Shown: piece after piece, positions 24,692 to 57,200 of the stretch
Position numbering within the stretch: the stretch's first letter is position 1
How the letters are laid out: every line of letters begins with the position of its first letter
DNA from: Daphnia carinata
Taxonomy: Eukaryota; Arthropoda; Branchiopoda; Diplostraca; Daphniidae
NCBI RefSeq assembly: GCF_022539665.2
Contig: NC_081340.1
Coordinates: forward strand, 2,046,001-2,110,000
DNA length: 64,000 bases
Reading direction: 5' to 3'
The notes under the pieces: generated by a model
What the model was told of the DNA's origin: nothing
Databases searched by the model: none
The model's input: only the letters and a program-made list of their open reading frames with translations
Translations under genes and position numbers: made by a program

Positions 24692-25009
24692 TAAAACAAA
24701 ATACAAATACAAAACTTCAGAAAATATTCAGATATTGCACGTTGTTCCTTGAATCTGTTGAAGAATTCAAAGAGTGTAATAAATAATAATTGAACGCTTA
24801 CTGATAAACGATAAACCAATGGAAAGAATGCTTACCATCTAAGGTGTCCTAAACAAAAAAGGTGAACTGATCAAGCTAAATAAGAAGAAAAAGTTGATAA
24901 ATGTAATGTGTGAACACAGCGCACACAGACAATGAAAGAAACAAATTTTGCAAAAAATATTTTATTAAAAAAATTTATTGACAATTCTCTGCACATCATA
25001 ATTATTTTT

Positions 25010-28651: not shown

Positions 28652-30337
28652 ACGGGAAACCAAAGTACTGTGGAAAAGCAGTACTCCTAAGACGTTGGCT
28701 GCCAGTTCGCTGCCGACAAAATCGGGTCTTCACACCGTCACTTGCCGAAGTCTGAGTTTTAGAAAGTCTAGTAGTAAATAGCGAGTATAAGTGAAAACCA
28801 ACTCCAATAGACTTTAGATTTGTTTTACTATGGCGAAAGTGCCAACAATAATGGCTTATGTTAAGTTAAGTCCTCAGGGTTTCCCTAAGCTGTTCAAAAT
28901 GGATTTCCCACTAAACACCATGCTTCAGTAAAAGTATTAACCAAATATACATTTTGAAAAATTAAAAAAATAAGCATTTACCTTGTTGACGAACGTTTCT
29001 ATCTTGCCTAACTCCTGATTCCTCCTCTTGTAGTCACATTTACATTCTTCAGACACAGACACATTCACCTAGCTATATAACAAAAAAAAAATTTAAAAAA
29101 AATTACAGAACCATGTTTTCACAAAATATGTTAAAGAAAACCAATTTACCTTGTTAACTACAATAACAGAATAGGACTTAACATTGACAGTTGGGAACCT
29201 CAACCTAAAAAGTATAAATCAATATTTGTTGGCCATAACTATCATTTAACAATTTTGTTCCTTCCTAACCTTTTTATAAAAAAACATCAGCTTGTTATTG
29301 AGAATGAAATCTTGGCTCTCTCTCCTCTGTGTCACTGTCAAGAACTGTACCTATAGCAACAAAAAAAAATCTGTTAGGGGTAAAAAATTTCAAAATCATG
29401 AATAGATAATAATAACAATAAATGAAAATATTGTTACCACCAGTCTGGCAAAACAATGGTGATTTAGCAATAGCTTTGAAGTTTAGCAATAGCTTTGAAG
29501 TTTAGAAAGAGCACTCTTGTCTTACAATCTCTTCTACACATTCTGGATAACTGGTTCGTGTGCATTTTGCCCTTTTGCTTTCAAATAATAAAAGCGGATC
29601 AGTAAGAAATGAACAGCAGGCAATCTATGAAACAAGAAGACAGAAGAAAATGAATGATACATTTAATATGAATAAAAAAAACAAATACAAAATGTTATGT
29701 ATAGCTACAGTATAATACTCTTGTACCAATGTGTTAATAATACTTAAAGCTGGGAGACATGTTACAAATACAACAATAATCTGTAAAATGAAAATTTAGA
29801 TAACCAAGTTATTGCTTTACTGATATATTATTGTTGTATTTTTATTTACATACTGATGATTGTAACCATAAAACAATTACTCTCTGAGCTTTTACTTGGT
29901 GAATTTTACCACTTTCACATGTGTTATCTACTACCTTTTTCAGAAGAGAAGGTAGTATAACATTGGTGATACCTATCTAGTTGATCCTGTTGATTTCGTA
30001 AGTAGCTTTGGGTATGGCAGATATTACATATCAGTATCTGCTAAGACAAACACCTGAAGAAAACCAAACCTTTAAGTAAAATCTATCTTAATGCTTCAAA
30101 TGTGTAGCCATAGTGGTAAAATTAACAGTATAGATTATGCAATGCAAAATTGTATCATATACCCTTTCACAGCAAACAATTCTTCAACACTTGCAATACA
30201 TCATTACTTCCCTAAGAGTTATGATCCTTTTTTTTGGTATAATACGTACTACATCACTTTGACATTACCTTTTTCAAGAGACGGGAATTGGATAGGAAAT
30301 CCATGATTGAATATATCATCCATAATAATAATACTCC

Positions 30338-32626: not shown

Positions 32627-35600
32627 ATGAGGGCTCCCAAATACTCGGCAAAGTTTACGATATTCATGATTTTTTCGGTCACTGGCATTACACTGGGCGA
32701 CAATCCTTTAGCGGAAAAAAGTGGGATTGAAAATGATCTTTTCCAAGGGGAAGATTCATCCAACAACGTTGTGAGCACCGTGTCGGAGAAATCTACAGTT
32801 TCTTTAAAAAATGAAAGAGGAAAGTGTGTTGAGTACTTAGAGTCAAACCTGAAAGAATTTCTACAAACGAATACCCTAACGACAAGCAAAGTAAGTTTTT
32901 GTATAAGGAATACGAAATATGCATTTACAATCGTAATAGCCTTATTGAAGTATGACCAGACTACATTTACTTAAAATTCACGATAACAATAATATATTTT
33001 AGGATAGTACAACGCATCCAGGTGCTGCAGTCGACGAAATACTGCACAAAGTAACATATTTTTAACATTCACAACAAACAAAAATAATAATAGTTAAAAA
33101 ATGTTAAATTTTATCACAGAAAACACTTGAATTAATGAGAGATTGCAAAGGTGCTCAAATTGATGTAAAACAACATGTCATTACAGAGGTATTGCAGCCT
33201 AAAATTAGATAAATTCAAAATAGTTAACTTACATGTTTTATTCCAGGTCGATTCTTGTAAGAGAAGTTTCGAACAGCTGGTAATCCAAAGAATCTTGCTT
33301 AAGGTAAACATTTTTTATTGCCATAAGCCACTTCAAATCTATGTATTAGGGTGTTCTTACTGTGGTTAGATAAGGATTTTTACTATACCACATGATTATT
33401 TCCTTTCCTTGACAGTAGTAAATCAAGGGGGTTTTAAAACTCGAAAAAAAATTTTGAACTTGCCCCACATAATTTTCCTTTGAAGAATTACAAAATCAAG
33501 ACTTTGTAGTAAAACCAACTCTAGTATTCGTATGCAAGAACTACGCCACCTTTCGATCAGAAAATCACAAAAAAAGCCTTTTTTTTTTTACCTGGAATCA
33601 CAAAAATCGAAAACACTTTTGGATTCAGTCTTTGTTCTTGCATCTCGTAAACTTCACCAAAAAAATGTACACAATCCGAAGAAGTCAGTTTCAATTGGTA
33701 AAACTAAGCCTTGTCATTCACTAGTCGTTTCATCACGCGTATTTGAATAGTTAATTTTAAGTCAACTTTAAATCAACCGACACGTCATACGGTAGGACAA
33801 TTTTAATCACGAAGCGGCACAATTTTAATACTTTTGTAAAGCAACAAGCAGACGGTATTGCCAATGGCCGCAAATGGTAACTAAGAAATGATTTTGGTAA
33901 CTAAAGTCTAATAGTCACGTGATTTCAACTGTGGTCAAGTAGCCAGGGGCGTGTAAGGGAATATTTACCTATATCTTAATATTATATTATTATTATGTAT
34001 GGCGATTAATGGTATATATATATGATTATTAATCGCCGTTTACGATATTTAGCCGTATTCCAAAACTGCGGAAAAACTGGAGGAAGAGAATAACCAGCTT
34101 CGTAAAAACATCCAAAAACTCGAAATAGAAAAACAGCTAGAACAAGTCCGGTTTACAGAGGAAAAGAAAAACTTTGAATTCATTATCGAACAAACGAAAA
34201 AAGCAATACAGGAAAAAGAAAACCTTTTGATTCATGCTAACGAAGAAAACCTTAATGTACGAAATAATCTGATTATCTACCGAGAAGAAATAGCAAATCT
34301 TACATTTGAACTGGAAAACGATGACCCAGTTTTAGGGGCAAAAAAATTATCAACCATCCAACTAGTTCAGAAACTGAAAAAAGAAAAATTTAATGCTGAA
34401 AGTCTGTCACATCGACTTAATATAGAAAACCAGAAGCTGGAACACAAACTTACAGAGTGCCAATATGACATAAAAAACATTACTGACCTATTAAAAGATG
34501 AAAATTTTACCACTGGGTATGATGATTCTTCAGCAATAAGACTTGTCGTTGAATCACAACGAATAAAAAACAACTGTTACAAATTGTCCGATAAAATGTC
34601 GGAAGAAAAAAAGTTGTTGGAAAGCAACATCACTATTTGTGAAACTACAAAGAAAAGTTTAGCTCAACTGTTACAAGACGAACAAAGCAAGTTATCAAAG
34701 TGTCAAAAAACAAATATTGCATCAGAGGGAATGGTATCTTCTTGTCTTCTCGAATTAAAAACAGAGACAAAACGATTGGATGAAACGGTCCAGAACTTAG
34801 AAACCCAGTACGATCTTTGTAAAAAGCAAATCATTTTACAACAAAGAAAAGAGGAAAAATGTAGAGTGAAAAAAGAAAAACTAAAAGAAATTATAACAGC
34901 AGTACGTATCAATCAAAACAACCATGTAAAGGAAATGAAAGATGAATTCGAGATAATGCAAAACTATGGGAAAAAAGTGCATGATATCGTAAAAAATCAA
35001 CTGCAATGGATTTTAACACAAGACGAAATAGAAAAAAATTCAACAAGCACATCGCGCGAATTTCGAAAAATGATCATGCGTTCTAATGAAACATATCATC
35101 ATTCAAATAGTAAAAACATGACAGAAATCGAGATTTTGGAGGAAGTATATCGTAAATTAAATTCTGCACTTCTATGTGAGCGAAAACTGAACGAGGTTTT
35201 CGATGTTGTCAAGATAGAATATCAAAACATTACCCTGTCCAGAAATGATGGAAATGACTCGATGGCCGTAGAAAATGCCACAACACTTGAAATGTTACAA
35301 GAATGGAAAAGGGAGTTGAAACAGAATAAAGAGCAATTGCTTCTAGCAAAGGATGAAATTGCGAACATTGCAAACTTTGCCAGAGAGTTTATGGTGCCAG
35401 AAACACAAAAATTGCTGGATGCTTACATTTTGCCAGTGAATGCCACACCTCTAGAACATGACCCAGCCATAATAGAAACCTTAAACGACTTGCAAAGGAA
35501 ATTGAAGCGAACCCAGGAACTACTGTTGCTTACCAACGATGAAATTAAAAACATTACCGGATTTGCGACAAAGTTTACCAGTGAATTAAACCCTAGCCCC

Positions 35601-38600
35601 ATTGACGATTCAGTGCAAGAGGTAAATGACACAAGTCCTGAGCTAAAAACTACTCCGATCCAAACACTTCGAGATTGGCAAGAAAAATTAATGCAGGCGA
35701 AAGAAATATTACTTGTGGCCAAAGAGGAGATTAAGGACATCGCTCTCGCCACTCTTGACTTAATGAATTTGGGGGACAATAAAACCATCGCTTCAACAAG
35801 CCAATCTAGTAACCCAATATTTGTAACCAATACCACTGCAGCAGCTGAAAGAATGAAAGATATACAACAAGGATTGAAGTCTGCTCAGGAACAACTCCTC
35901 TTGACCAAAGATGGAATTCTCAGCATGAACAGTTTTGCGAGAGATTGGACTGATTTGGTCTCTGAAAATGCAAATGTTTCCAACGGAGTTTTAAATGACA
36001 CGGTTGATGGACCAACTAGCATGCCAACACAAAATTTAACAGAGTTGCAGGGGGCATTGAAGCAGTCCCAAAATCAACTGTTATCAACTGCTGATGAAAC
36101 TGAGAACATTGCAAAGTATGCAGAAGACATTATAAGCTTAGGTTTAAAAGCAATAGGGGCTTCACTTGGCCAAACAAGTCCAGCAATCCTTGGACCAAAT
36201 GCTTCGGCAATGGAAACATTACAAGAGTGGCAAAGACAGTTCAAAGGAGTTGAGCAACAGGCACTGCTCGCAAAGGATGAAGTGAAAAACATTGCAGACT
36301 TTGTCTCAAATACATTTTCACACATCCTGACTACTCCTAATGGAACGATTACTGAGTCTCTTGACAAAAATGCATCGACAATTGATGTACTGAAGGCGGT
36401 GCATCGTGAATTGACTGCTGCAGCTTTGTGCCATTCAACCTCTGGACCCAACGCTTCATCTATTGATCTTTTACAACAATGGCAAACAAGATTCAAAGAA
36501 ATGCAACAACAGGCACTGCTTGCAAAGGATGAAATTAGAAACATTTCAGATTATGCAATGAATACCTTTTCAGACCGTTTGGGTTTCGCTAACGGAACGT
36601 CTACAGATCCTGCTGACCAAAACATGTCGACCATCGACATTCTGCAGGCCGTGCATCGTGAATTGTCTGCTACAGCTCTGTGTGAGAAACAAATGAAAGA
36701 GGTTTCCGATGTTGTCAAGATAGAATATCAAAACATTACCCTGTCCAGAAATGATGGAAATGACTCGATGGCCGTAGAAAATGCCACAACACTTGAAATG
36801 TTACAAGAATGGAAAAGGGAGTTGAAACAGAATAAAGAGCAATTGCTTCTAGCAGAGGATGAAATTGCGAACATTGCAAACTTTGCCAGAGAGTTTATGG
36901 TGCCAGAAACACAAAAATTGCTGGATGCTTACATTTTGCCAGTGAATGCCACACCTCTAGAACATGACCCAGCCACAATAGAAACCTTAAACGACTTGCA
37001 AAGGAAATTGAGGCGAACCCAGGAACTACTGTTGCTTACCAACGATGAAATTAAAAACATTACCGGATTTGCGACAAAGTTTACCAGTGAATTAAACCCT
37101 AGCCCCATTGACGATTCAGTGCAAGAGGTAAATGACACAAGTCCTGAGCTAAAAACTACTCCGATCCAAACACTTCGAGATTGGCAAGAAAAATTAATGC
37201 AGGCGAAAGAAATATTACTTGTGGCCAAAGAGGAGATTAAGGACATCGCTCTCGCCACTCTTGACTTAATGAATTTGGGGGACAATAAAACCATCGCTTC
37301 AACAAGCCAATCTAGTAACCCAATATTTGTAACCAATACCACTGCAGCAGCTGAAAGAATGAAAGATATACAACAAGGATTGAAGTCTGCTCAGGAACAA
37401 CTCCTCTTGACCAAAGATGGAATTCTCAGCATGAACAGTTTTGCGAGAGATTGGACTGATTTGGTCTCTGAAAATGCAAATGTTTCCAACGGAGTTTTAA
37501 ATGACACGGTTGATGGACCAACTAGCATGCCAACACAAAATTTAACAGAGTTGCAGGGGGCATTGAAGCAGTCCCAAAATCAACTGTTATCAACTGCTGA
37601 TGAAACTGAGAACATTGCAAAGTATGCAGAAGACATTATAAGCTTAGGTTTAAAAGCAATAGGGGCTTCACTTGGCCAAACAAGTCCAGCAATCCTTGGA
37701 CCAAATGCTTCGGCAATGGAAACATTACAAGAGTGGCAAAGACAGTTCAAAGGAGTTGAGCAACAGGCACTGCTCGCAAAGGATGAAGTGAAAAACATTG
37801 CAGACTTTGTCTCAAATACATTTTCACACATCCTGACTACTCCTAATGGAACGATTACTGAGTCTCTTGACAAAAATGCATCGACAATTGATGTACTGAA
37901 GGCGGTGCATCGTGAATTGACTGCTGCAGCTTTGTGCCATTCAACCTCTGGACCCAACGCTTCATCTATTGATCTTTTACAACAATGGCAAACAAGATTC
38001 AAAGAAATGCAACAACAGGCACTGCTTGCAAAGGATGAAATTAGAAACATTTCAGATTATGCAATGAATACCTTTTCAGACCGTTTGGGTTTCGCTAACG
38101 GAACGTCTACAGATCCTGCTGACCAAAACATGTCGACCATCGACATTCTGCAGGCCGTGCATCGTGAATTGTCTGCTACAGCTCTGTGTGAGAAACAAAT
38201 GAAAGAGGTTTCCGATGTTGTCAAGATAGAATATCAAAACATTACCCTGTCCAGAAATGATGGAAATGACTCGATGGCCGTAGAAAATGCCACAACACTT
38301 GAAATGTTACAAGAATGGAAAAGGGAGTTGAAACAGAATAAAGAGCAATTGCTTCTAGCAGAGGATGAAATTGCGAACATTGCAAACTTTGCCAGAGAGT
38401 TTATGGTGCCAGAAACACAAAAATTGCTGGATGCTTACATTTTGCCAGTGAATGCCACACCTCTAGAACATGACCCAGCCACAATAGAAACCTTAAACGA
38501 CTTGCAAAGGAAATTGAAGCGAACCCAGGAACTACTGTTGCTTACCAACGATGAAATTAAAAACATTACCGGATTTGCGACAAAGTTTACCAGTGAATTA

Positions 38601-41600
38601 AACCCTAGCCCCATTGACGATTCAGTGCAAGAGGTAAATGACACAAGTCCTGAGCTAAAAACTACTCCGATCCAAACACTTCGAGATTGGCAAGAAAAAT
38701 TAATGCAGGCGAAAGAAATATTACTTGTGGCCAAAGAGGAGATTAAGGACATCGCTCTCGCCACTCTTGACTTAATGAATTTGGGGGACAATAAAACCAT
38801 CGCTTCAACAAGCCAATCTAGTAACCCAATATTTGTAACCAATACCACTGCAGCAGCTGAAAGAATGAAAGATATACAACAAGGATTGAAGTCTGCTCAG
38901 GAACAACTCCTCTTGACCAAAGATGGAATTCTCAGCATGAACAGTTTTGCGAGAGATTGGACTGATTTGGTCTCTGAAAATGCAAATGTTTCCAACGGAG
39001 TTTTAAATGACACGGTTGATGGACCAACTAGCATGCCAACACAAAATTTAACAGAGTTGCAGGGGGCATTGAAGCAGTCCCAAAATCAACTGTTATCAAC
39101 TGCTGATGAAACTGAGAACATTGCAAAGTATGCAGAAGACATTATAAGCTTAGGTTTAAAAGCAATAGGGGCTTCACTTGGCCAAACAAGTCCAGCAATC
39201 CTTGGACCAAATGCTTCGGCAATGGAAACATTACAAGAGTGGCAAAGACAGTTCAAAGGAGTTGAGCAACAGGCACTGCTCGCAAAGGATGAAGTGAAAA
39301 ACATTGCAGACTTTGTCTCAAATACATTTTCACACATCCTGACTACTCCTAATGGAACGATTACTGAGTCTCTTGACAAAAATGCATCGACAATTGATGT
39401 ACTGAAGGCGGTGCATCGTGAATTGACTGCTGCAGCTTTGTGCCATTCAACCTCTGGACCCAACGCTTCATCTATTGATCTTTTACAACAATGGCAAACA
39501 AGATTCAAAGAAATGCAACAACAGGCACTGCTTGCAAAGGATGAAATTAGAAACATTTCAGATTATGCAATGAATACCTTTTCAGACCGTTTGGGTTTCG
39601 CTAACGGAACGTCTACAGATCCTGCTGACCAAAACATGTCGACCATCGACATTCTGCAGGCCGTGCATCGTGAATTGTCTGCTACAGCTCTGTGTGAGAA
39701 ACAAATGAAAGAGGTTTCCGATGTTGTCAAGATAGAATATCAAAACATTACCCTGTCCAGAAATGATGGAAATGACTCGATGGCCGTAGAAAATGCCACA
39801 ACACTTGAAATGTTACAAGAATGGAAAAGGGAGTTGAAACAGAATAAAGAGCAATTGCTTCTAGCAGAGGATGAAATTGCGAACATTGCAAACTTTGCCA
39901 GAGAGTTTATGGTGCCAGAAACACAAAAATTGCTGGATGCTTACATTTTGCCAGTGAATGCCACACCTCTAGAACATGACCCAGCCACAATAGAAACCTT
40001 AAACGACTTGCAAAGGAAATTGAAGCGAACCCAGGAACTACTGTTGCTTACCAACGATGAAATTAAAAACATTACCGGATTTGCGACAAAGTTTACCAGT
40101 GAATTAAACCCTAGCCCCATTGACGATTCAGTGCAAGAGGTAAATGACACAAGTCCTGAGCTAAAAACTACTCCGATCCAAACACTTCGAGATTGGCAAG
40201 AAAAATTAATGCAGGCGAAAGAAATATTACTTGTGGCCAAAGAGGAGATTAAGGACATCGCTCTCGCCACTCTTGACTTAATGAATTTGGGGGACAATAA
40301 AACCATCGCTTCAACAAGCCAATCTAGTAACCCAATATTTGTAACCAATACCACTGCAGCAGCTGAAAGAATGAAAGATATACAACAAGGATTGAAGTCT
40401 GCTCAGGAACAACTCCTCTTGACCAAAGATGGAATTCTCAGCATGAACAGTTTTGCGAGAGATTGGACTGATTTGGTCTCTGAAAATGCAAATGTTTCCA
40501 ACGGAGTTTTAAATGACACGGTTGATGGACCAACTAGCATGCCAACACAAAATTTAACAGAGTTGCAGGGGGCATTGAAGCAGTCCCAAAATCAACTGTT
40601 ATCAACTGCTGATGAAACTGAGAACATTGCAAAGTATGCAGAAGACATTATAAGCTTAGGTTTAAAAGCAATAGGGGCTTCACTTGGCCAAACAAGTCCA
40701 GCAATCCTTGGACCAAATGCTTCGGCAATGGAAACATTACAAGAGTGGCAAAGACAGTTCAAAGGAGTTGAGCAACAGGCACTGCTCGCAAAGGATGAAG
40801 TGAAAAACATTGCAGACTTTGTCTCAAATACATTTTCACACATCCTGACTACTCCTAATGGAACGATTACTGAGTCTCTTGACAAAAATGCATCGACAAT
40901 TGATGTACTGAAGGCGGTGCATCGTGAATTGACTGCTGCAGCTTTGTGCCATTCAACCTCTGGACCCAACGCTTCATCTATTGATCTTTTACAACAATGG
41001 CAAACAAGATTCAAAGAAATGCAACAACAGGCACTGCTTGCAAAGGATGAAATTAGAAACATTTCAGATTATGCAATGAATACCTTTTCAGACCGTTTGG
41101 GTTTCGCTAACGGAACGTCTACAGATCCTGCTGACCAAAACATGTCGACCATCGACATTCTGCAGGCCGTGCATCGTGAATTGTCTGCTACAGCTCTGTG
41201 TGAGAAACAAATGAAAGAGGTTTCCGATGTTGTCAAGATAGAATATCAAAACATTACCCTGTCCAGAAATGATGGAAATGACTCGATGGCCGTAGAAAAT
41301 GCCACAACACTTGAAATGTTACAAGAATGGAAAAGGGAGTTGAAACAGAATAAAGAGCAATTGCTTCTAGCAGAGGATGAAATTGCGAACATTGCAAACT
41401 TTGCCAGAGAGTTTATGGTGCCAGAAACACAAAAATTGCTGGATGCTTACATTTTGCCAGTGAATGCCACACCTCTAGAACATGACCCAGCCACAATAGA
41501 AACCTTAAACGACTTGCAAAGGAAATTGAAGCGAACCCAGGAACTACTGTTGCTTACCAACGATGAAATTAAAAACATTACCGGATTTGCGACAAAGTTT

Positions 41601-44600
41601 ACCAGTGAATTAAACCCTAGCCCCATTGACGATTCAGTGCAAGAGGTAAATGACACAAGTCCTGAGCTAAAAACTACTCCGATCCAAACACTTCGAGATT
41701 GGCAAGAAAAATTAATGCAGGCGAAAGAAATATTACTTGTGGCCAAAGAGGAGATTAAGGACATCGCTCTCGCCACTCTTGACTTAATGAATTTGGGGGA
41801 CAATAAAACCATCGCTTCAACAAGCCAATCTAGTAACCCAATATTTGTAACCAATACCACTGCAGCAGCTGAAAGAATGAAAGATATACAACAAGGATTG
41901 AAGTCTGCTCAGGAACAACTCCTCTTGACCAAAGATGGAATTCTCAGCATGAACAGTTTTGCGAGAGATTGGACTGATTTGGTCTCTGAAAATGCAAATG
42001 TTTCCAACGGAGTTTTAAATGACACGGTTGATGGACCAACTAGCATGCCAACACAAAATTTAACAGAGTTGCAGGGGGCATTGAAGCAGTCCCAAAATCA
42101 ACTGTTATCAACTGCTGATGAAACTGAGAACATTGCAAAGTATGCAGAAGACATTATAAGCTTAGGTTTAAAAGCAATAGGGGCTTCACTTGGCCAAACA
42201 AGTCCAGCAATCCTTGGACCAAATGCTTCGGCAATGGAAACATTACAAGAGTGGCAAAGACAGTTCAAAGGAGTTGAGCAACAGGCACTGCTCGCAAAGG
42301 ATGAAGTGAAAAACATTGCAGACTTTGTCTCAAATACATTTTCACACATCCTGACTACTCCTAATGGAACGATTACTGAGTCTCTTGACAAAAATGCATC
42401 GACAATTGATGTACTGAAGGCGGTGCATCGTGAATTGACTGCTGCAGCTTTGTGCCATTCAACCTCTGGACCCAACGCTTCATCTATTGATCTTTTACAA
42501 CAATGGCAAACAAGATTCAAAGAAATGCAACAACAGGCACTGCTTGCAAAGGATGAAATTAGAAACATTTCAGATTATGCAATGAATACCTTTTCAGACC
42601 GTTTGGGTTTCGCTAACGGAACGTCTACAGATCCTGCTGACCAAAACATGTCGACCATCGACATTCTGCAGGCCGTGCATCGTGAATTGTCTGCTACAGC
42701 TCTGTGTGAGAAACAAATGAAAGAGGTTTCCGATGTTGTCAAGATAGAATATCAAAACATCACCCTGTCCAGAAATGATGGAAATGACTCGATGGCCGTA
42801 GAAAATGCCACAACACTTGAAATGTTACAAGAATGGAAAAGGGAGTGGAAACAGAATAAAGAGCAATTGCTTCTAGCAGAGGATGAAATTGCGAACATTG
42901 CAAACTTTGCCAGAGAGTTTATGGTGCCAGAAACACAAAAATTGCTGGATGCTTACACTTTGCCAGTGAATGCCACACCTCTAGAACATGACCCAGCCAC
43001 AATAGAAACCTTAAACGACTTGCAAAGGAAATTGAAGCGAACCCAGGAACTACTGTTGCTTACCAACGATGAAATTAAAAACATTACCGGATTTGCGACA
43101 AAGTTTACCAGTGAATTAAACCCTAGCCCCATTGACGATTCAGTGCAAGAGGTAAATGACACAAGTCCTGAGCTAAAAACTACTCCGATCCAAACACTTC
43201 GAGATTGGCAAGAAAAATTAATGCAGGCGAAAGAAATATTACTTGTGGCCAAAGAGGAGATTAAGGACATCGCTCTCGCCACTCTTGACTTAATGAATTT
43301 GGGGGACAATAAAACCATCGCTTCAACAAGCCAATCTAGTAACCCAATATTTGTAACCAATACCACTGCAGCAGCTGAAAGAATGAAAGATATACAACAA
43401 GGATTGAAGTCTGCTCAGGAACAACTCCTCTTGACCAAAGATGGAATTCTCAGCATGAACAGTTTTGCGAGAGATTGGACTGATTTGGTCTCTGAAAATG
43501 CAAATGTTTCCAACGGAGTTTTAAATGACACGGTTGATGGACCAACTAGCATGCCAACACAAAATTTAACAGAGTTGCAGGGGGCATTGAAGCAGTCCCA
43601 AAATCAACTGTTATCAACTGCTGATGAAACTGAGAACATTGCAAAGTATGCAGAAGACATTATAAGCTTAGGTTTAAAAGCAATAGGGGCTTCACTTGGC
43701 CAAACAAGTCCAGCAATCCTTGGACCAAATGCTTCGGCAATGGAAACATTACAAGAGTGGCAAAGACAGTTCAAAGGAGTTGAGCAACAGGCACTGCTCG
43801 CAAAGGATGAAGTGAAAAACATTGCAGACTTTGTCTCAAATACATTTTCACACATCCTGACTACTCCTAATGGAACGATTACTGAGTCTCTTGACAAAAA
43901 TGCCTCGACAATTGATGTACTGAAGGCGGTGCATCGTGAATTGACTGCTGCAGCTTTGTGCCATTCAACCTCTGGACCCAACGCTTCATCTATTGATCTT
44001 TTACAACAATGGCAAACAAGATTCAAAGAAATGCAACAACAGGCACTGCTTGCAAAGGATGAAATTAGAAACATTTCAGATTATGCAATGAATACCTTTT
44101 CAGACCGTTTGGGTTTCGCTAACGGAACGTCTACAGATCCTGCTGACCAAAACATGTCGACCATCGACATTCTGCAGGCCGTGCATCGTGAATTGTCTGC
44201 TACAGCTCTGTGTGAGAAACAAATGAAAGAGGTTTCCGATGTTGTCAAGATAGAATATCAAAACATTACCCTGTCCAGAAATGATGGAAATGACTCGATG
44301 GCCGTAGAAAATGCCACAACACTTGAAATGTTACAAGAATGGAAAAGGGAGTTGAAACAGAATAAAGAGCAATTGCTTCTAGCAGAGGATGAAATTGCGA
44401 ACATTGCAAACTTTGCCAGAGAGTTTATGGTGCCAGAAACACAAAAATTGCTGGATGCTTACACTTTGCCAGTGAATGCCACACCTCTAGAACATGACCC
44501 AGCCACAATAGAAACCTTAAACGACTTGCAAAGGAAATTGAAGCGAACCCAGGAACTACTGTTGCTTACCAACGATGAAATTAAAAACATTACCGGATTT

Positions 44601-47600
44601 GCGACAAAGTTTACCAGTGAATTAAACCCTAGCCCCATTGACGATTCAGTGCAAGAGGTAAATGACACAAGTCCTGAGCTAAAAACTACTCCGATCCAAA
44701 CACTTCGAGATTGGCAAGAAAAATTAATGCAGGCGAAAGAAATATTACTTGTGGCCAAAGAGGAGATTAAGGACATCGCTCTCGCCACTCTTGACTTAAT
44801 GAATTTGGGGGACAATAAAACCATCGCTTCAACAAGCCAATCTAGTAACCCAATATTTGTAACCAATACCACTGCAGCAGCTGAAAGAATGAAAGATATA
44901 CAACAAGGATTGAAGTCTGCTCAGGAACAACTCCTCTTGACCAAAGATGGAATTCTCAGCATGAACAGTTTTGCGAGAGATTGGACTGATTTGGTCTCTG
45001 AAAATGCAAATGTTTCCAACGGAGTTTTAAATGACACGGTTGATGGACCAACTAGCATGCCAACACAAAATTTAACAGAGTTGCAGGGGGCATTGAAGCA
45101 GTCCCAAAATCAACTGTTATCAACTGCTGATGAAACTGAGAACATTGCAAAGTATGCAGAAGACATTATAAGCTTAGGTTTAAAAGCAATAGGGGCTTCA
45201 CTTGGCCAAACAAGTCCAGCAATCCTTGGACCAAATGCTTCGGCAATGGAAACATTACAAGAGTGGCAAAGACAGTTCAAAGGAGTTGAGCAACAGGCAC
45301 TGCTCGCAAAGGATGAAGTGAAAAACATTGCAGACTTTGTCTCAAATACATTTTCACACATCCTGACTACTCCTAATGGAACGATTACTGAGTCTCTTGA
45401 CAAAAATGCCTCGACAATTGATGTACTGAAGGCGGTGCATCGTGAATTGACTGCTGCAGCTTTGTGCCATTCAACCTCTGGACCCAACGCTTCATCTATT
45501 GATCTTTTACAACAATGGCAAACAAGATTCAAAGAAATGCAACAACAGGCACTGCTTGCAAAGGATGAAATTAGAAACATTTCAGATTATGCAATGAATA
45601 CCTTTTCAGACCGTTTGGGTTTCGCTAACGGAACGTCTACAGATCCTGCTGACCAAAACATGTCGACCATCGACATTCTGCAGGCCGTGCATCGTGAATT
45701 GTCTGCTACAGCTCTGTGTGAGAAACAAATGAAAGAGGTTTCCGATGTTGTCAAGATAGAATATCAAAACATTACCCTGTCCAGAAATGATGGAAATGAC
45801 TCGATGGCCGTAGAAAATGCCACAACACTTGAAATGTTACAAGAATGGAAAAGGGAGTTGAAACAGAATAAAGAGCAATTGCTTCTAGCAGAGGATGAAA
45901 TTGCGAACATTGCAAACTTTGCCAGAGAGTTTATGGTGCCAGAAACACAAAAATTGCTGGATGCTTACACTTTGCCAGTGAATGCCACACCTCTAGAACA
46001 TGACCCAGCCACAATAGAAACCTTAAACGACTTGCAAAGGAAATTGAAGCGAACCCAGGAACTACTGTTGCTTACCAACGATGAAATTAAAAACATTACC
46101 GGATTTGCGACAAAGTTTACCAGTGAATTAAACCCTAGCCCCATTGACGATTCAGTGCAAGAGGTAAATGACACAAGTCCTGAGCTAAAAACTACTCCGA
46201 TCCAAACACTTCGAGATTGGCAAGAAAAATTAATGCAGGCGAAAGAAATATTACTTGTGGCCAAAGAGGAGATTAAGGACATCGCTCTCGCCACTCTTGA
46301 CTTAATGAATTTGGGGGACAATAAAACCATCGCTTCAACAAGCCAATCTAGTAACCCAATATTTGTAACCAATACCACTGCAGCAGCTGAAAGAATGAAA
46401 GATATACAACAAGGATTGAAGTCTGCTCAGGAACAACTCCTCTTGACCAAAGATGGAATTCTCAGCATGAACAGTTTTGCGAGAGATTGGACTGATTTGG
46501 TCTCTGAAAATGCAAATGTTTCCAACGGAGTTTTAAATGACACGGTTGATGGACCAACTAGCATGCCAACACAAAATTTAACAGAGTTGCAGGGGGCATT
46601 GAAGCAGTCCCAAAATCAACTGTTATCAACTGCTGATGAAACTGAGAACATTGCAAAGTATGCAGAAGACATTATAAGCTTAGGTTTAAAAGCAATAGGG
46701 GCTTCACTTGGCCAAACAAGTCCAGCAATCCTTGGACCAAATGCTTCGGCAATGGAAACATTACAAGAGTGGCAAAGACAGTTCAAAGGAGTTGAGCAAC
46801 AGGCACTGCTCGCAAAGGATGAAGTGAAAAACATTGCAGACTTTGTCTCAAATACATTTTCACACATCCTGACTACTCCTAATGGAACGATTACTGAGTC
46901 TCTTGACAAAAATGCCTCGACAATTGATGTACTGAAGGCGGTGCATCGTGAATTGACTGCTGCAGCTTTGTGCCATTCAACCTCTGGACCCAACGCTTCA
47001 TCTATTGATCTTTTACAACAATGGCAAACAAGATTCAAAGAAATGCAACAACAGGCACTGCTTGCAAAGGATGAAATTAGAAACATTTCAGATTATGCAA
47101 TGAATACCTTTTCAGACCGTTTGGGTTTCGCTAACGGAACGTCTACAGATCCTGCTGACCAAAACATGTCGACCATCGACATTCTGCAGGCCGTGCATCG
47201 TGAATTGTCTGCTACAGCTCTGTGTGAGAAACAAATGAAAGAGGTTTCCGATGTTGTCAAGATAGAATATCAAAACATCACCCTGTCCAGAAATGATGGA
47301 AATGACTCGATGGCCGTAGAAAATGCCACAACACTTGAAATGTTACAAGAATGGAAAAGGGAGTTGAAACAGAATAAAGAGCAATTGCTTCTAGCAGAGG
47401 ATGAAATTGCGAACATTGCAAACTTTGCCAGAGAGTTTATGGTGCCAGAAACACAAAAATTGCTGGATGCTTACACTTTGCCAGTGAATGCCACACCTCT
47501 AGAACATGACCCAGCCACAATAGAAACCTTAAACGACTTGCAAAGGAAATTGAAGCGAACCCAGGAACTACTGTTGCTTACCAACGATGAAATTAAAAAC

Positions 47601-50600
47601 ATTACCGGATTTGCGACAAAGTTTACCAGTGAATTAAACCCTAGCCCCATTGACGATTCAGTGCAAGAGGTAAATGACACAAGTCCTGAGCTAAAAACTA
47701 CTCCGATCCAAACACTTCGAGATTGGCAAGAAAAATTAATGCAGGCGAAAGAAATATTACTTGTGGCCAAAGAGGAGATTAAGGACATCGCTCTCGCCAC
47801 TCTTGACTTAATGAATTTGGGGGACAATAAAACCATCGCTTCAACAAGCCAATCTAGTAACCCAATATTTGTAACCAATACCACTGCAGCAGCTGAAAGA
47901 ATGAAAGATATACAACAAGGATTGAAGTCTGCTCAGGAACAACTCCTCTTGACCAAAGATGGAATTCTCAGCATGAACAGTTTTGCGAGAGATTGGACTG
48001 ATTTGGTCTCTGAAAATGCAAATGTTTCCAACGGAGTTTTAAATGACACGGTTGATGGACCAACTAGCATGCCAACACAAAATTTAACAGAGTTGCAGGG
48101 GGCATTGAAGCAGTCCCAAAATCAACTGTTATCAACTGCTGATGAAACTGAGAACATTGCAAAGTATGCAGAAGACATTATAAGCTTAGGTTTAAAAGCA
48201 ATAGGGGCTTCACTTGGCCAAACAAGTCCAGCAATCCTTGGACCAAATGCTTCGGCAATGGAAACATTACAAGAGTGGCAAAGACAGTTCAAAGGAGTTG
48301 AGCAACAGGCACTGCTCGCAAAGGATGAAGTGAAAAACATTGCAGACTTTGTCTCAAATACATTTTCACACATCCTGACTACTCCTAATGGAACGATTAC
48401 TGAGTCTCTTGACAAAAATGCCTCGACAATTGATGTACTGAAGGCGGTGCATCGTGAATTGACTGCTGCAGCTTTGTGCCATTCAACCTCTGGACCCAAC
48501 GCTTCATCTATTGATCTTTTACAACAATGGCAAACAAGATTCAAAGAAATGCAACAACAGGCACTGCTTGCAAAGGATGAAATTAGAAACATTTCAGATT
48601 ATGCAATGAATACCTTTTCAGACCGTTTGGGTTTCGCTAACGGAACGTCTACAGATCCTGCTGACCAAAACATGTCGACCATCGACATTCTGCAGGCCGT
48701 GCATCGTGAATTGTCTGCTACAGCTCTGTGTGAGAAACAAATGAAAGAGGTTTCCGATGTTGTCAAGATAGAATATCAAAACATTACCCTGTCCAGAAAT
48801 GATGGAAATGACTCGATGGCCGTAGAAAATGCCACAACACTTGAAATGTTACAAGAATGGAAAAGGGAGTTGAAACAGAATAAAGAGCAATTGCTTCTAG
48901 CAGAGGATGAAATTGCGAACATTGCAAACTTTGCCAGAGAGTTTATGGTGCCAGAAACACAAAAATTGCTGGATGCTTACATTTTGCCAGTGAATGCCAC
49001 ACCTCTAGAACATGACCCAGCCACAATAGAAACCTTAAACGACTTGCAAAGGAAATTGAAGCGAACCCAGGAACTACTGTTGCTTACCAACGATGAAATT
49101 AAAAACATTACCGGATTTGCGACAAAGTTTACCAGTGAATTAAACCCTAGCCCCATTGACGATTCAGTGCAAGAGGTAAATGACACAAGTCCTGAGCTAA
49201 AAACTACTCCGATCCAAACACTTCGAGATTGGCAAGAAAAATTAATGCAGGCGAAAGAAATATTACTTGTGGCCAAAGAGGAGATTAAGGACATCGCTCT
49301 CGCCACTCTTGACTTAATGAATTTGGGGGACAACAAAACCATCGCTTCAACAAGCCAATCTAGTAACCCAATATTTGTAACCAATACCACTGCAGCAGCT
49401 GAAAGAATGAAAGATATACAACAAGGATTGAAGTCTGCTCAGGAACAACTCCTCTTGACCAAAGATGGAATTCTCAGCATGAACAGTTTTGCGAGAGATT
49501 GGACTGATTTGGTCTCTGAAAATGCAAATGTTTCCAACGGAGTTTTAAATGACACGGTTGATGGACCAACTAGCATGCCAACACAAAATTTAACAGAGTT
49601 GCAGGGGGCATTGAAGCAGTCCCAAAATCAACTGTTATCAACTGCTGATGAAACTGAGAACATTGCAAAGTATGCAGAAGACATTATAAGCTTAGGTTTA
49701 AAAGCAATAGGGGCTTCACTTGGCCAAACAAGTCCAGCAATCCTTGGACCAAATGCTTCGGCAATGGAAACATTACAAGAGTGGCAAAGACAGTTCAAAG
49801 GAGTTGAGCAACAGGCACTGCTCGCAAAGGATGAAGTGAAAAACATTGCAGACTTTGTCTCAAATACATTTTCACACATCCTGACTACTCCTAATGGAAC
49901 GATTACTGAGTCTCTTGACAAAAATGCCTCGACAATTGATGTACTGAAGGCGGTGCATCGTGAATTGACTGCTGCAGCTTTGTGCCATTCAACCTCTGGA
50001 CCCAACGCTTCATCTATTGATCTTTTACAACAATGGCAAACAAGATTCAAAGAAATGCAACAACAGGCACTGCTTGCAAAGGATGAAATTAGAAACATTT
50101 CAGATTATGCAATGAATACCTTTTCAGACCGTTTGGGTTTCGCTAACGGAACGTCTACAGATCCTGCTGACCAAAACATGTCGACCATCGACATTCTGCA
50201 GGCCGTGCATCGTGAATTGTCTGCTACAGCTCTGTGTGAGAAACAAATGAAAGAGGTTTCCGATGTTGTCAAGATAGAATATCAAAACATCACCCTGTCC
50301 AGAAATGATGGAAATGACTCGATGGCCGTAGAAAATGCCACAACACTTGAAATGTTACAAGAATGGAAAAGGGAGTGGAAACAGAATAAAGAGCAATTGC
50401 TTCTAGCAGAGGATGAAATTGCGAACATTGCAAACTTTGCCAGAGAGTTTATGGTGCCAGAAACACAAAAATTGCTGGATGCTTACACTTTGCCAGTGAA
50501 TGCCACACCTCTAGAACATGACCCAGCCACAATAGAAACCTTAAACGACTTGCAAAGGAAATTGAAGCGAACCCAGGAACTACTGTTGCTTACCAACGAT

Positions 50601-53600
50601 GAAATTAAAAACATTACCGGATTTGCGACAAAGTTTACCAGTGAATTAAACCCTAGCCCCATTGACGATTCAGTGCAAGAGGTAAATGACACAAGTCCTG
50701 AGCTAAAAACTACTCCGATCCAAACACTTCGAGATTGGCAAGAAAAATTAATGCAGGCGAAAGAAATATTACTTGTGGCCAAAGAGGAGATTAAGGACAT
50801 CGCTCTCGCCACTCTTGACTTAATGAATTTGGGGGACAATAAAACCATCGCTTCAACAAGCCAATCTAGTAACCCAATATTTGTAACCAATACCACTGCA
50901 GCAGCTGAAAGAATGAAAGATATACAACAAGGATTGAAGTCTGCTCAGGAACAACTCCTCTTGACCAAAGATGGAATTCTCAGCATGAACAGTTTTGCGA
51001 GAGATTGGACTGATTTGGTCTCTGAAAATGCAAATGTTTCCAACGGAGTTTTAAATGACACGGTTGATGGACCAACTAGCATGCCAACACAAAATTTAAC
51101 AGAGTTGCAGGGGGCATTGAAGCAGTCCCAAAATCAACTGTTATCAACTGCTGATGAAACTGAGAACATTGCAAAGTATGCAGAAGACATTATAAGCTTA
51201 GGTTTAAAAGCAATAGGGGCTTCACTTGGCCAAACAAGTCCAGCAATCCTTGGACCAAATGCTTCGGCAATGGAAACATTACAAGAGTGGCAAAGACAGT
51301 TCAAAGGAGTTGAGCAACAGGCACTGCTCGCAAAGGATGAAGTGAAAAACATTGCAGACTTTGTCTCAAATACATTTTCACACATCCTGACTACTCCTAA
51401 TGGAACGATTACTGAGTCTCTTGACAAAAATGCCTCGACAATTGATGTACTGAAGGCGGTGCATCGTGAATTGACTGCTGCAGCTTTGTGCCATTCAACC
51501 TCTGGACCCAACGCTTCATCTATTGATCTTTTACAACAATGGCAAACAAGATTCAAAGAAATGCAACAACAGGCACTGCTTGCAAAGGATGAAATTAGAA
51601 ACATTTCAGATTATGCAATGAATACCTTTTCAGACCGTTTGGGTTTCGCTAACGGAACGTCTACAGATCCTGCTGACCAAAACATGTCGACCATCGACAT
51701 TCTGCAGGCCGTGCATCGTGAATTGTCTGCTACAGCTCTGTGTGAGAAACAAATGAAAGAGGTTTCCGATGTTGTCAAGATAGAATATCAAAACATCACC
51801 CTGTCCAGAAATGATGGAAATGACTCGATGGCCGTAGAAAATGCCACAACACTTGAAATGTTACAAGAATGGAAAAGGGAGTTGAAACAGAATAAAGAGC
51901 AATTGCTTCTAGCAGAGGATGAAATTGCGAACATTGCAAACTTTGCCAGAGAGTTTATGGTGCCAGAAACACAAAAATTGCTGGATGCTTACACTTTGCC
52001 AGTGAATGCCACACCTCTAGAACATGACCCAGCCACAATAGAAACCATAAACGACTTGCAAAGGAAATTGAAGCGAACCCAGGAACTACTGTTGCTTACC
52101 AACGATGAAATTAAAAACATTACCGGATTTGCGACAAAGTTTACCAGTGAATTAAACCCTAGCCCCATTGACGATTCAGTGCAAGAGGTAAATGACACAA
52201 GTCCTGAGCTAAAAACTACTCCGATCCAAACACTTCGAGATTGGCAAGAAAAATTAATGCAGGCGAAAGAAATATTACTTGTGGCCAAAGAGGAGATTAA
52301 GGACATCGCTCTCGCCACTCTTGACTTAATGAATTTGGGGGACAACAAAACCATCGCTTCAACAAGCCAATCTAGTAACCCAATATTTGTAACCAATACC
52401 ACTGCAGCAGCTGAAAGAATGAAAGATATACAACAAGGATTGAAGTCTGCTCAGGAACAACTCCTCTTGACCAAAGATGGAATTCTCAGCATGAACAGTT
52501 TTGCGAGAGATTGGACTGATTTGGTCTCTGAAAATGCAAATGTTTCCAACGGAGTTTTAAATGACACGGTTGATGGACCAACTAGCATGCCAACACAAAA
52601 TTTAACAGAGTTGCAGGGGGCATTGAAGCAGTCCCAAAATCAACTGTTATCAACTGCTGATGAAACTGAGAACATTGCAAAGTATGCAGAAGACATTATA
52701 AGCTTAGGTTTAAAAGCAATAGGGGCTTCACTTGGCCAAACAAGTCCAGCAATCCTTGGACCAAATGCTTCGGCAATGGAAACATTACAAGAGTGGCAAA
52801 GACAGTTCAAAGGAGTTGAGCAACAGGCACTGCTCGCAAAGGATGAAGTGAAAAACATTGCAGACTTTGTCTCAAATACATTTTCACACATCCTGACTAC
52901 TCCTAATGGAACGATTACTGAGTCTCTTGACAAAAATGCCTCGACAATTGATGTACTGAAGGCGGTGCATCGTGAATTGACTGCTGCAGCTTTGTGCCAT
53001 TCAACCTCTGGACCCAACGCTTCATCTATTGATCTTTTACAACAATGGCAAACAAGATTCAAAGAAATGCAACAACAGGCACTGCTTGCAAAGGATGAAA
53101 TTAGAAACATTTCAGATTATGCAATGAATACCTTTTCAGACCGTTTGGGTTTCGCTAACGGAACGTCTACAGATCCTGCTGACCAAAACATGTCGACCAT
53201 CGACATTCTGCAGGCCGTGCATCGTGAATTGTCTGCTACAGCTCTGTGTGAGAAACAAATGAAAGAGGTTTCCGATGTTGTCAAGATAGAATATCAAAAC
53301 ATTACCCTGTCCAGAAATGATGGAAATGACTCGATGGCCGTAGAAAATGCCACAACACTTGAAATGTTACAAGAATGGAAAAGGGAGTTGAAACAGAATA
53401 AAGAGCAATTGCTTCTAGCAGAGGATGAAATTGCGAACATTGCAAACTTTGCCAGAGAGTTTATGGTGCCAGAAACACAAAAATTGCTGGATGCTTACAC
53501 TTTGCCAGTGAATGCCACACCTCTAGAACATGACCCAGCCACAATAGAAACCTTAAACGACTTGCAAAGGAAATTGAAGCGAACCCAGGAACTACTGTTG

Positions 53601-56006
53601 CTTACCAACGATGAAATTAAAAACATTACCGGATTTGCGACAAAGTTTACCAGTGAATTAAACCCTAGCCCCATTGACGATTCAGTGCAAGAGGTAAATG
53701 ACACAAGTCCTGAGCTAAAAACTACTCCGATCCAAACACTTCGAGATTGGCAAGAAAAATTAATGCAGGCGAAAGAAATATTACTTGTGGCCAAAGAGGA
53801 GATTAAGGACATCGCTCTCGCCACTCTTGACTTAATGAATTTGGGGGACAACAAAACCATCGCTTCAACAAGCCAATCTAGTAACCCAATATTTGTAACC
53901 AATACCACTGCAGCAGCTGAAAGAATGAAAGATATACAACAAGGATTGAAGTCTGCTCAGGAACAACTCCTCTTGACCAAAGATGGAATTCTCAGCATGA
54001 ACAGTTTTGCGAGAGATTGGACTGATTTGGTCTCTGAAAATGCAAATGTTTCCAACGGAGTTTTAAATGACACGGTTGATGGACCAACTAGCATGCCAAC
54101 ACAAAATTTAACAGAGTTGCAGGGGGCATTGAAGCAGTCCCAAAATCAACTGTTATCAACTGCTGATGAAACTGAGAACATTGCAAAGTATGCAGAAGAC
54201 ATTATAAGCTTAGGTTTAAAAGCAATAGGGGCTTCACTTGGCCAAACAAGTCCAGCAATCCTTGGACCAAATGCTTCGGCAATGGAAACATTACAAGAGT
54301 GGCAAAGACAGTTCAAAGGAGTTGAGCAACAGGCACTGCTCGCAAAGGATGAAGTGAAAAACATTGCAGACTTTGTCTCAAATACATTTTCACACATCCT
54401 GACTACTCCTAATGGAACGATTACTGAGTCTCTTGACAAAAATGCCTCGACAATTGATGTACTGAAGGCGGTGCATCGTGAATTGACTGCTGCAGCTTTG
54501 TGCCATTCAACCTCTGGACCCAACGCTTCATCTATTGATCTTTTACAACAATGGCAAACAAGATTCAAAGAAATGCAACAACAGGCACTGCTTGCAAAGG
54601 ATGAAATTAGAAACATTTCAGATTATGCAATGAATACCTTTTCAGACCGTTTGGGTTTCGCTAACGGAACGTCTACAGATCCTGCTGACCAAAACATGTC
54701 GACCATCGACATTCTGCAGGCCGTGCATCGTGAACTGTCTGCTACAGCTCTGTGTGAGAAACAAATGAAAGAGGTTTCCGATGTTGTCAAGATAGAATAT
54801 CAAAACATTACCCTGTCCAGAAATGATGGAAATGACTCGATGGCCGTAGAAAATGCCACAACACTTGAAATGTTACAAGAATGGAAAAGGGAGTTGAAAC
54901 AGAATAAAGAGCAATTGCTTCTAGCAGAGGATGAAATTGCGAACATTGCAAACTTTGCAAGAGATTTGATTAAAATAGAAAATCAAAATTTCAATTCTTT
55001 AATAGGACAAACAGACTTTCCAATGTTTGAAGCAAACATCACTACACTTGAAATGTTAAAGGATCTGCAAAGAATCTTTAATCTGACACAGGAAAAAGTC
55101 TTGCTGGTTTTTGATGAAATTCGAAATATTTCAAAATTCGCAGTGGACGAATTCATACCTATTTTAGCATCGGCTGGTAAAGCAAACAGCGAAACGCTTG
55201 GGACGAATTCTTCGACAAGCGAAATTTTGTATGCTGTGTATGACGAACTTTTGGCTGCACAGAAGAAAATCGAAAATGCATCTGATATTTTAATCCCCAA
55301 ATTGGAAAAAGTGGAAGAAAACTTGGCGTTTTATGAAAATGAACGGACAAAAATTGCAAATGCGATCTGGCAAGGGTATGAAGACATTGCCATTCCCTTG
55401 GATGAAGGAAACAGTACAGGGGACGGACGTAACACAACGTTAACTGAAATTTTAGAGCAAAAATTGCGTTTGGAACTGGCTGAAGCCGTCGCAGACAGTC
55501 AACACTGGATGATTCGGGCAATGGAGGAAACCACTGAAAGTACACAAAGCGTTCCTACGGAGCCAGATCGTATTGATGGGGCGAATCAAACTAATGAGCT
55601 GCTGAGAACGAAAATTTGGGATGATTCTTGCTTTCTTTGCCAAAGTCAGCTGAATAACATTACAGAGTTTATAAAAGTACACACTCTTAATCAAACGGAA
55701 AATAATTTTACGGCATTTGAGCTCCTGAAAGAGCTGCAATTAACCTGGACTGCTGAGAAAGCAGCTTATGAATTATTGTTGAACGAATGCAAATCTTCGA
55801 ATCAGCAGTATTCTGACTTGTACCACCAGTCGGTAGCTTCTTTAGAGGACGCTATCTCTTCCAAAGCGAATCTAGAAAAATACCTAGCTGAGGAAACCAG
55901 TAAACTGGAGATTCAACGCCAAATCATGGATGCTTATGTTGAACAAGCCCTGCTTGATAATTTGAATGCCTATGCTGAAAAAATTAATAGTAGTTTTCCC
56001 TTGTAA
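32627..56006 (+). CDS. Giant secreted coiled-coil repeat glycoprotein, 7,463 residues
   Basis: Five phase-0 coding exons: 32,627-32,890; 33,003-33,050; 33,120-33,188; 33,247-33,303; 34,053-56,006. Splice sites are good (AGCAAA|GTAAGT, TTTTAG|, TTATCACAG|, TTCCAG|, TATTTAG|). The start is the ATG at 32,627; the residues MRAPKYSAKFTIFMIFSVTG form a signal peptide cut near 24. Residues 25-146 hold one cysteine in each of three small exons. Residues 147-526 are charged, heptad-like coiled coil. Residues 527-7,052 are 13 tandem copies of a 502-residue unit, then part of a fourteenth to about 7,116. The last 347 residues are unique coiled coil and end without a membrane anchor. Sequons (NxS/T) are extremely dense, 18 per unit, and two cysteines per unit could form disulfides. 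The unbroken 22-kb frame implies selection. The likely role is an extracellular, heavily N-glycosylated fibrous or gel-forming protein (silk, egg-case, gut lining or adhesive); no family is recognised. Confidence 0.9.
33304..34052 (+). other. Intron 4 of the giant repeat gene
   Basis: Runs from donor AAG|GTAAAC to acceptor GATATTTAG|CC. At 749 bp it is much longer than the gene's other introns (112, 69 and 58 bp). It contains short AT tracts and no coding exon that I can support. Confidence 0.7.
35193..54964 (+). repeat. Coding tandem array: 13 copies of 1,506 bp plus a partial copy
   Basis: Unit starts (GAGGTTT.CGATGTTGTCAAG) fall at 35,193, 36,699, 38,205, 39,711, 41,217, 42,723, 44,229, 45,735, 47,241, 48,747, 50,253, 51,759 and 53,265; the partial copy starts at 54,771. 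No length change occurs in any copy. The few variants include Lys to Glu at LLLA(K/E)DEIANI (copy 1 differs), Ile/Thr in DAY(I/T)LPV, Leu/Trp in KRE(L/W)KQN (Trp in copies 6 and 11), KLRRT in copy 2 and TIN for TLN in copy 12. Each unit has about seven sub-repeats of 60-75 residues sharing LQxWQxxLKxxxxxLLLxKDEIxNI. The array ends where GCCAGAGAGTTT becomes GCAAGAGATTTG. Confidence 0.95.
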
Positions 56007-56559: not shown

Positions 56560-57200
56560 AGTTTTTTTAATGAACGGAAATGAAAGTGCTACCAATTTGT
56601 TCGTCCAATTTCTACGTTTATTTGAAAACTATTAGCCCGACATCAAAACAAACTCAATAATCGTGATTACCGTTCAATTTTGAATGGATTTCATGCATTT
56701 ATTACTAAATCTAAATTTTTGCGAAAAATGGAAAAGTGAGAAGGCCTTCTCATTTTTGTCAAAATCTGAGAAAAACCAATTCTCTTAGAACTTGATAAAA
56801 ACTGTCATACCATATAAAAAAATGAACGCTGATCTCAAAAAACCTATTTATTTTCTCGCCAAACCAGTAGTTTTTTTTTAAATTAAAAAAAAACAAAAGT
56901 TGTCTTTACGTAACAACTGTGTTCTTCCGTTTTCTACGCTTATTTCAAAAACTATAAGCCCAAGATGAAAATTAAGTTGATTTCGCAGTTGTCCTTTAAT
57001 TAAAAATTTAAATCATGCGTAGTTTGCTAAATTTAAAATGTAATAAAAAAATAAATAAAAAATATTTAAGCCCGGCTTTATAAGCCCGCCATTATAAGCC
57101 CTGCATTATAAGCCCGACTTATATTGACTTTGACATTTGATGAAATTGAATTTGATATAAACGAATTTCAATGCTGGTTCCGATTAAAATATTAGTTTTC
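56560..57200. repeat. Second member of the fold-back repeat family
   Basis: Shares with 14,310-16,310 the AAGCCCG motif (57,067-57,120 has four spaced copies, such as AAGCCCGACTTATA), the AAGGCCTT-centred palindrome (56,732-56,757) and the flanking TTTTTGTCAAAATC..CTCTTAGAA..TTGATAAAAA sequence. It is shorter and more diverged, with no encoded protein. Confidence 0.6.

Follow-up and report, generated by a model that had tools for sequence, protein, structure and literature searches.

A predicted giant secreted repeat glycoprotein and its four-exon leader family in a cladoceran-like genome

Giant repetitive secreted proteins are known mainly from silk and salivary glands, and a stop-free frame of 7,317 codons in a cladoceran-like genome raises the question of whether such a protein is encoded there and, if so, from what it grew. 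The 64,000-nucleotide stretch that was analysed (the window) spans C10:2046001-2110000 of a 108-Mb assembly of 106 contigs (C1, C2, C5 and so on are its contigs), has zero N and a GC content of 39.6%. Judged from genomic sequence, the locus is on balance probably a functional gene encoding a giant N-glycoprotein that is secreted (the giant), the extreme member of a small family in a cladoceran-like crustacean.

The large stop-to-stop frame (34053-56006, forward strand) is preceded by four small exons, and the four introns are all GT-AG and all in phase 0. The features of the gene, in window coordinates, are as follows (aa, amino acids).

Exon 1, 32627..32890, + strand: signal peptide and leader start, 88 aa; similar exons on C5, C6 and C8
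Exon 2, 33003..33050, + strand: 16 aa, phase 0; counterparts at paralogues
Exon 3, 33120..33188, + strand: 23 aa, phase 0, conserved MxxC; counterparts at paralogues
Exon 4, 33247..33303, + strand: 19 aa, phase 0, conserved EQLxIQ[KR]I
Exon 5, 34053..56006, + strand: 7,317 aa, large repeat exon
Exon 5 N-terminal part, 34053..35201, + strand: 383 aa, probable helical coil, 8 Cys, 7 sequons
Array, 35202..54779, + strand: 13 complete 1,506-nt (502-aa) units
Start of a 14th unit, 54780..54962, + strand: its initial 61 aa, after which the sequence diverges
Diverged additional helix motif, 55041..55154, + strand: 38 aa, left out of the motif profile (32.1 bits, domain E 3e-12)
C-terminal part and stop, 54963..56006, + strand: 347 aa, without a hydrophobic anchor

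The spliced product would comprise 7,463 aa (829 kDa, predicted pI 4.65, 40 Cys) and contains 256 N-glycosylation sequons. An earlier sequence-only reading had described a secreted repeat glycoprotein with a signal peptide, four phase-0 exons and one 21,954-nt exon, 7,463 residues in all; its coordinates and count were reproduced here, and the predicted secretion and glycosylation agree with the sequon count and with a signal peptide called by eye and hydropathy alone. Hydropathy windows of 19 residues exceeding 1.2 begin only at residues 6 and 10, and no transmembrane segment was seen beyond the signal peptide in a hydropathy scan of the whole predicted protein. Each unit carries 18 sequons compared to 5.3 ± 2.0 in shuffled units, none of 2,000 shuffles reaching 18. 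Under a first-order Markov model with the composition of the unit, a mean of 27.8 stops per 502 codons was obtained, and 0 of 4,000 simulated units were open, so the open frame is not a product of chance. An AATAAA begins 222 nt past the stop codon. Repeated antisense frames (153 and 158 aa) were considered as evidence and rejected, as they sit in antisense frames with 88–388 stops each.

The leader family

Used as a genome query, exon 1 of the giant returned three weak non-self matches (E 0.17–0.46), the third of which (C5:8397k) begins with a signal peptide and a similar stretch, after which comes a frame of 688 aa with many Cys and sequons. With the C5 exon 1 as the reverse query, exon 1 of the giant was the best non-self match in the 108 Mb, at only E 0.08, and matches on C8 (E 0.33) and C6 (E 0.41) were also found. 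Both C5 and C8:2607k possess an exon 2 of 16 aa, an exon 3 of 23 aa with MxxC and an exon 4 of 21 aa with EQLxIQKI, and, as in the giant, all are in phase 0 and the last exon starts with Pro. A DNA pattern for EQLxIQ[KR]I occurs at six places in the genome and at none when reversed (~0.1–0.35 expected by chance), though it was designed from three of the six (the giant, C5 and C8:2607k). The other three, all on C8, each lie 0.4–0.6 kb from a weak exon-1 match (E 0.025, 0.086 and 0.086) returned by a separate search with the C8:2607k exon 1, which also matched C6 (E 2.5e-24), C8:3038k (E 0.32) and C8:3218k (E 1.27).

In total, nine leader loci were found including the giant, the eight other places comprising at least one that has decayed. 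Exons 3 and 4 were each recognised at eight of the nine and exon 2 at seven; later exon searches imposed the lengths, and independent lengths come from the giant, C5 and C8:2607k only. The best explanation of these sequences is that the giant and its paralogues have a leader in common, encoded by four exons and comprising a signal peptide and ~100–120 residues in which Cys and EQLxIQ[KR]I are conserved.

A leader profile built from C5, C8:2607k and C8:3218k, with the giant excluded, scored 72.1 bits against the giant (best of 20,000 shuffles, 19.3 bits), and 70.4 bits (shuffles, 17.9 bits) when the signal peptides were mostly trimmed by removing the first 20 residues of members and 24 of the giant. 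The family exons had been chosen by eye in knowledge of those of the giant, so the choice was repeated by rule, taking the best ordered AG-exon-GT triple resembling exons 2–4 of the giant within 1 kb. All three exons were recovered in order at six of the eight paralogues (scores 61–94), while none of 786 decoy windows scored above -7 and none of 3,000 Markov sequences above 2. Because the leader recurs at paralogues that match the giant in exon order, exon sizes and phase, the exon model of the sequence-only reading gains support that does not depend on a transcript. Upstream DNA common to the giant and its family was rejected when five 800-nt upstream stretches were compared, the only matches being between the C8:2607k and C6 pair and over 37 nt between C8:2607k and C8:3218k.

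Behind the leader, the last exon varies from 127 (C6), 128 (C8:3161k and C8:3174k), 131 (C8:3218k) and 141 (C8:2607k) residues to 688 (C5) and 7,317 (the giant). The short last exons resemble one another. No homology of these exons to the C-terminal part of the giant was detected with a profile of four short ones (-0.9 bits, outranked by 2,270 entries of a list made up almost wholly of 3,000 shuffles), and none to its N-terminal coil by blastp (E 0.041–0.10, no better than expected of coils). A proposed match between a CxxC stretch in the C-terminal part of the giant and the Cys motif that ends the short members was rejected. The C5 last exon holds a 92-residue repeat of its own (62–83% DNA identity where repeating), and we read these sequences as independent growth of repeats in the corresponding exon of different members.

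Several of the short copies may be decaying. C8:3038k looks degraded, the last exon of C8:3188k is absent from the DNA stretch examined, and, by eye, exon 1 of C8:3161k, C8:3174k and C8:3188k seems to end in another frame than that of C8:3218k. Close downstream of three C8 copies is a Pro/Tyr-rich frame with a signal-like start (L055:2398-3018; also L056 and L057), which may be another secreted structural protein; a Pfam search of the L055 frames gave zero matches. The two weak exon-1 matches on C2 (L043 and L044) lie in frames of another kind, which are long, charged and helical, adjoin a gag-like stretch and, by eye, probably belong to a mobile element.

The repeat unit and the array

The unit is built of seven subrepeats, mostly 61–62 residues apart, each a ~38-residue heptad helix followed by a linker richer in sequons and proline. 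A profile trained on the unit's seven helix motifs finds all seven in every copy given, as well as the diverged copy near the C-terminus that was outside the training set. When hydrophobicity was averaged over these eight helix copies (26–58% protein identity over 38 residues), the period peaked at 3.48 residues, with a power reached by 79 of 20,000 column shuffles, which supports a helical character. Most sequons (15 of 18, P = 0.0017) and prolines (14 of 16, P = 0.0010) of the unit are located outside the helix motifs, and the composition is Leu/Thr/Ala/Glu-rich (S 7.2%, T 9.4%, P 3.2%) with 2 Cys.

The 13 complete units and the 61 aa of the 14th follow one another in frame, at a constant spacing of 502 aa and without a stop, in the one assembly on which the copy number is based. 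Pairwise DNA identity among the 13 units is high (mean, 99.80%; minimum, 99.54%), with 10 variable sites, of which 6 alter an amino acid. All four combinations are present at 2 of 45 site pairs, and the units have therefore probably exchanged DNA. The array is flanked by diverged repeats at its 5' edge (63% identity over 132 aa) and at its 3' edge (69% identity over 122 aa), both figures including ~60 aa of intact unit; such flanks are expected of an array with a homogenised centre and non-homogenised edges. Seven of the 10 variable sites fall within the first 305 nt (first fifth) of the unit (P = 0.0009, with the cut set post hoc), which perhaps marks a conversion boundary.

The sequence-only reading had taken the open frames in 13 near-identical copies as a sign of an active protein. 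Constraint at the protein level is supported, but the copies themselves are a poor argument for it: copying brings the frame along, and 13 near-identical open copies thus say little on selection. Better evidence comes from the paralogues and from the helix copies that have diverged. The proportion of nonsynonymous differences (pN) was below that of synonymous differences (pS) in all 28 pairs of diverged helix copies, although pS is close to saturation, so the ratio gives the direction of constraint only.

Within the genome, the unit matched at the giant locus only (14 matches), the N-terminal part of exon 5 matched itself (1 match) and the C-terminal part matched within the gene (58 matches at E up to 10). 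In the protein database, queried with the unit, residues 1–1400 of the large frame and the downstream gene (the leader was outside these queries), there was no match for the unit at E ≤ 0.001 (7,998 candidates sharing most words scored) or for residues 1–1400 at E ≤ 0.01 (737 candidates scored), among candidates of ~276–878 and 4,024–12,803 aa only, such that orthologues of 879–4,023 aa would be missed. The downstream gene, as the control query, matched 63 proteins (one 81% identical over 70%), some of them arthropod-named, and the database thus does contain arthropod sequence. No relative was confirmed among viral contigs (4 pattern matches) or prokaryote genomes (27 pattern matches). No Pfam family exceeded the cut-off for the unit, the ends, the leader, the C5 last exon or one short member, the last of which had coil matches below the cut-off (Filament, E 1.1e-4, 22.4 of 40 bits), and the spidroin families gave none at E up to 1 for the spliced N-terminal 529 aa and C-terminal 346 aa. 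In the PDB there was no match for the unit (subrepeat profile, E 0.077 and 0.74; short member, E 0.31). Neither the giant gene nor the leader family appeared in a title or abstract opening among the literature matches listed, a set that mostly excludes subscription papers.

Predicted material and alternatives

We infer from this design that the giant would be expressed in some tissue, glycosylated, paired through its helices and used as a material. The family leader would be spliced in phase 0 to a single last exon that differs among members; in the giant, 62-residue helix-linker blocks would have been duplicated in tandem into the 502-residue unit, and this unit in turn into 13 or more copies, whose uniformity would be maintained through unequal crossing over or conversion. 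The encoded chain would be a long string of ~90 amphipathic helices between glycosylated, hydrated linkers. Helices of neighbouring chains could pair via their heptad faces, cross-links between chains may form at Cys of the terminal parts, and the attached sugars would keep the material wet, as an extracellular fibre, gel or glue. A fibrous role is plausible, and for the host-surface coat also suggested earlier the short paralogues give a marginal hint. A broader proposal, possible and put forward tentatively, is that this is an undescribed crustacean family in which a fixed four-exon secretory leader serves a last exon (127–7,317 residues) that is a workshop for helical repeat proteins, the giant being a new wet N-glycosylated coiled-coil polymer, neither silk nor mucin.

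Known systems resemble the giant in part. The coiled-coil silks of bees, ants and lacewings are secreted heptad-helix proteins that are small and not known to form giant tandem arrays; the giant is likewise predicted to be secreted, with heptad helices evident on average. Mucins are very large, secreted, repeated and heavily glycosylated proteins with a Ser/Thr/Pro domain, and the giant is similarly very large, repeated and predicted to be secreted and heavily glycosylated, but its unit has N-linked sequons and a helical pattern in place of a Ser/Thr/Pro domain.

The Balbiani ring genes of Chironomus tentans (BR1, BR2.1, BR2.2 and BR6) are giant secretory genes, ~40 kb long with four introns and a repeated centre (PMC4192438). 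The gene described here is likewise giant, with four introns and a repeated central coding part, a likeness drawn from the described architecture, and differs in its unit, 502 aa of heptad helices with N-glycan sequons. TuSp1, the tubuliform (egg-case) spidroin of Argiope argentata, is a single exon encoding 3,156 aa (Ala 26%, Ser 28%), with 16 copies of a 540-bp repeat that are >98% identical, the first 10 identical in DNA and the last truncated, between non-repetitive ends and with intragenic homogenisation (PMC5765351). The giant resembles TuSp1 in its long homogenised repeats, non-repetitive ends and partial final repeat, and departs from it in having four introns, 7,463 aa and a Leu/Thr/Ala/Glu-rich, sequon-dense composition. 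The giant is most likely a secreted helix-associating structural polymer, resembling Balbiani ring proteins or egg-case spidroins in build.

The sequence-only reading had known no arthropod family with this design, a statement overtaken by the family in the same genome and by the architectural precedents of the Balbiani ring and TuSp1 genes. We rate the leader family as the more novel part. The giant, predicted from a crustacean-like genome, combines an unusually long, uniform helical unit with short relatives in one genome, so that one can trace how a small secreted protein grew into a structural protein of the megadalton class, in an animal that, if Daphnia-like, is culturable and editable. 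The leader profile is usable for finding the family elsewhere, where the repeats likely collapse in short-read assemblies.

Several observations weigh against a working gene for a helical polymer. The giant is known here from genomic sequence alone. Its third-codon GC (0.375) is below that of the longest frames of eight kinase loci (0.44–0.62) and its codon usage shows a negative correlation (r = -0.47) with that of the gene downstream, although third-codon GC is likewise low in pieces of the P450 gene nearby (0.28 and 0.32). The low value counts mildly against very high output, and no tuning of the codons to massive output is seen. Among the paralogues, C6 has no recognised exon 2 (score 21), C8:3038k yields no triple, and no purifying selection was seen in the last exons of two short-copy pairs. 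Scans of single 35-residue stretches for heptads were patchy, with most windows below the 95% threshold, so the heptad claim rests on the averaged profile. AlphaFold gave low-confidence helices for the unit (predicted local distance difference test [pLDDT] 42, predicted template-modelling score [pTM] 0.28) and a weak model for two subrepeats (pLDDT 61.8, pTM 0.38), with helices at 2–42 and 66–107 (ten-residue means ~57–77) and residues 45–63 scoring under 50, drawn partly as a short helix.

If the chains stayed separate or only weakly paired, the giant could be a hydrated mucus or lubricating coat, in the gut, the feeding-current mucus or on the carapace surface, that acts by size, negative charge and N-glycans. 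We consider this unlikely: the 256 sequons, their concentration in the linkers, the predicted pI of 4.65 and the two Cys per unit all fit, while the heptad faces of the averaged helix profile suggest pairing and the unit (P 3.2%) has no mucin-type Ser/Thr/Pro domain. A fast-evolving host-parasite protein, a decoy or attachment surface in a family diversifying under selection, would be consistent with a multicopy family with recent duplicates on C8 and with one of two short-copy pairs, in which the last exons of L051 and L052 differ by 2 synonymous and 24 nonsynonymous changes (P = 0.049). For the second pair P is 0.29, one member of the first pair has no recognisable exon 2 and may be decaying, and the units of the giant are uniform rather than diverse, making this explanation decidedly improbable.

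Near-identical repeats are hard for assemblers, and the units differ by at most 7 of 1,506 nt, as they might if the protein were real and the array copy number an assembly artefact; the ten variable sites, some of them mosaic along the array, and the diverged repeat sequence on both flanks speak against this, and we regard it as very doubtful. That a repeat array drifted into a long frame, or that the gene is decaying, with no product in either case, is scarcely credible. Although evidence for the giant is genomic and at least one family member (C8:3038k) is degraded, its exon architecture is common to paralogues, its helix copies differ in the direction of protein-level constraint in every pair, and its 7,317 codons are free of stops with a constant unit length. 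A secreted structural polymer is preferred over these alternatives.

Neighbourhood of the gene

A large inverted repeat (arms 18689-24248 and 24763-30320; 5.56 kb, 99.66% identical, 514-bp spacer) ends 2.3 kb before the start codon of the giant. A 1-kb piece of its arm matches the genome 74 times, often on C10 and C7, and several of the matches form pairs of opposite orientation separated by a few kb; the repeat is a dispersed palindromic element. Palindromic DNA is also described at the BR1 and BR2 loci (PMC4192438); the palindrome upstream of the giant differs in coming from a dispersed repeat family. Short palindromic repeats with a TAAGCCCG-type motif occur at 14367-16233 and 56645-57123 (69% alike over ~340 nt), the latter directly 3' of the giant gene.

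On the reverse strand, cytochrome P450 exons are found at 16767-18116, and frames with Kunitz, WAP, thyroglobulin type-1, lustrin and antistasin domains, papilin-like, at 58639-63007. The animal is likely a Daphnia-like cladoceran. Ten contigs (C1–C10) have coordinates in the megabase range, which, like the GC content of the window, fits the 10 chromosomes and ~40% GC of D. magna (PMC10570034), although at 108 Mb the assembly is below most of those listed in that source. Elsewhere in the assembly, C1 has three places where a copper-zinc superoxide dismutase (SOD) domain match precedes a vitellogenin match of the same orientation, lying 0.3–1.7 kb upstream of it, and two of the three are arranged head to head; fusion of SOD to vitellogenin is a branchiopod trait, known from Daphnia.

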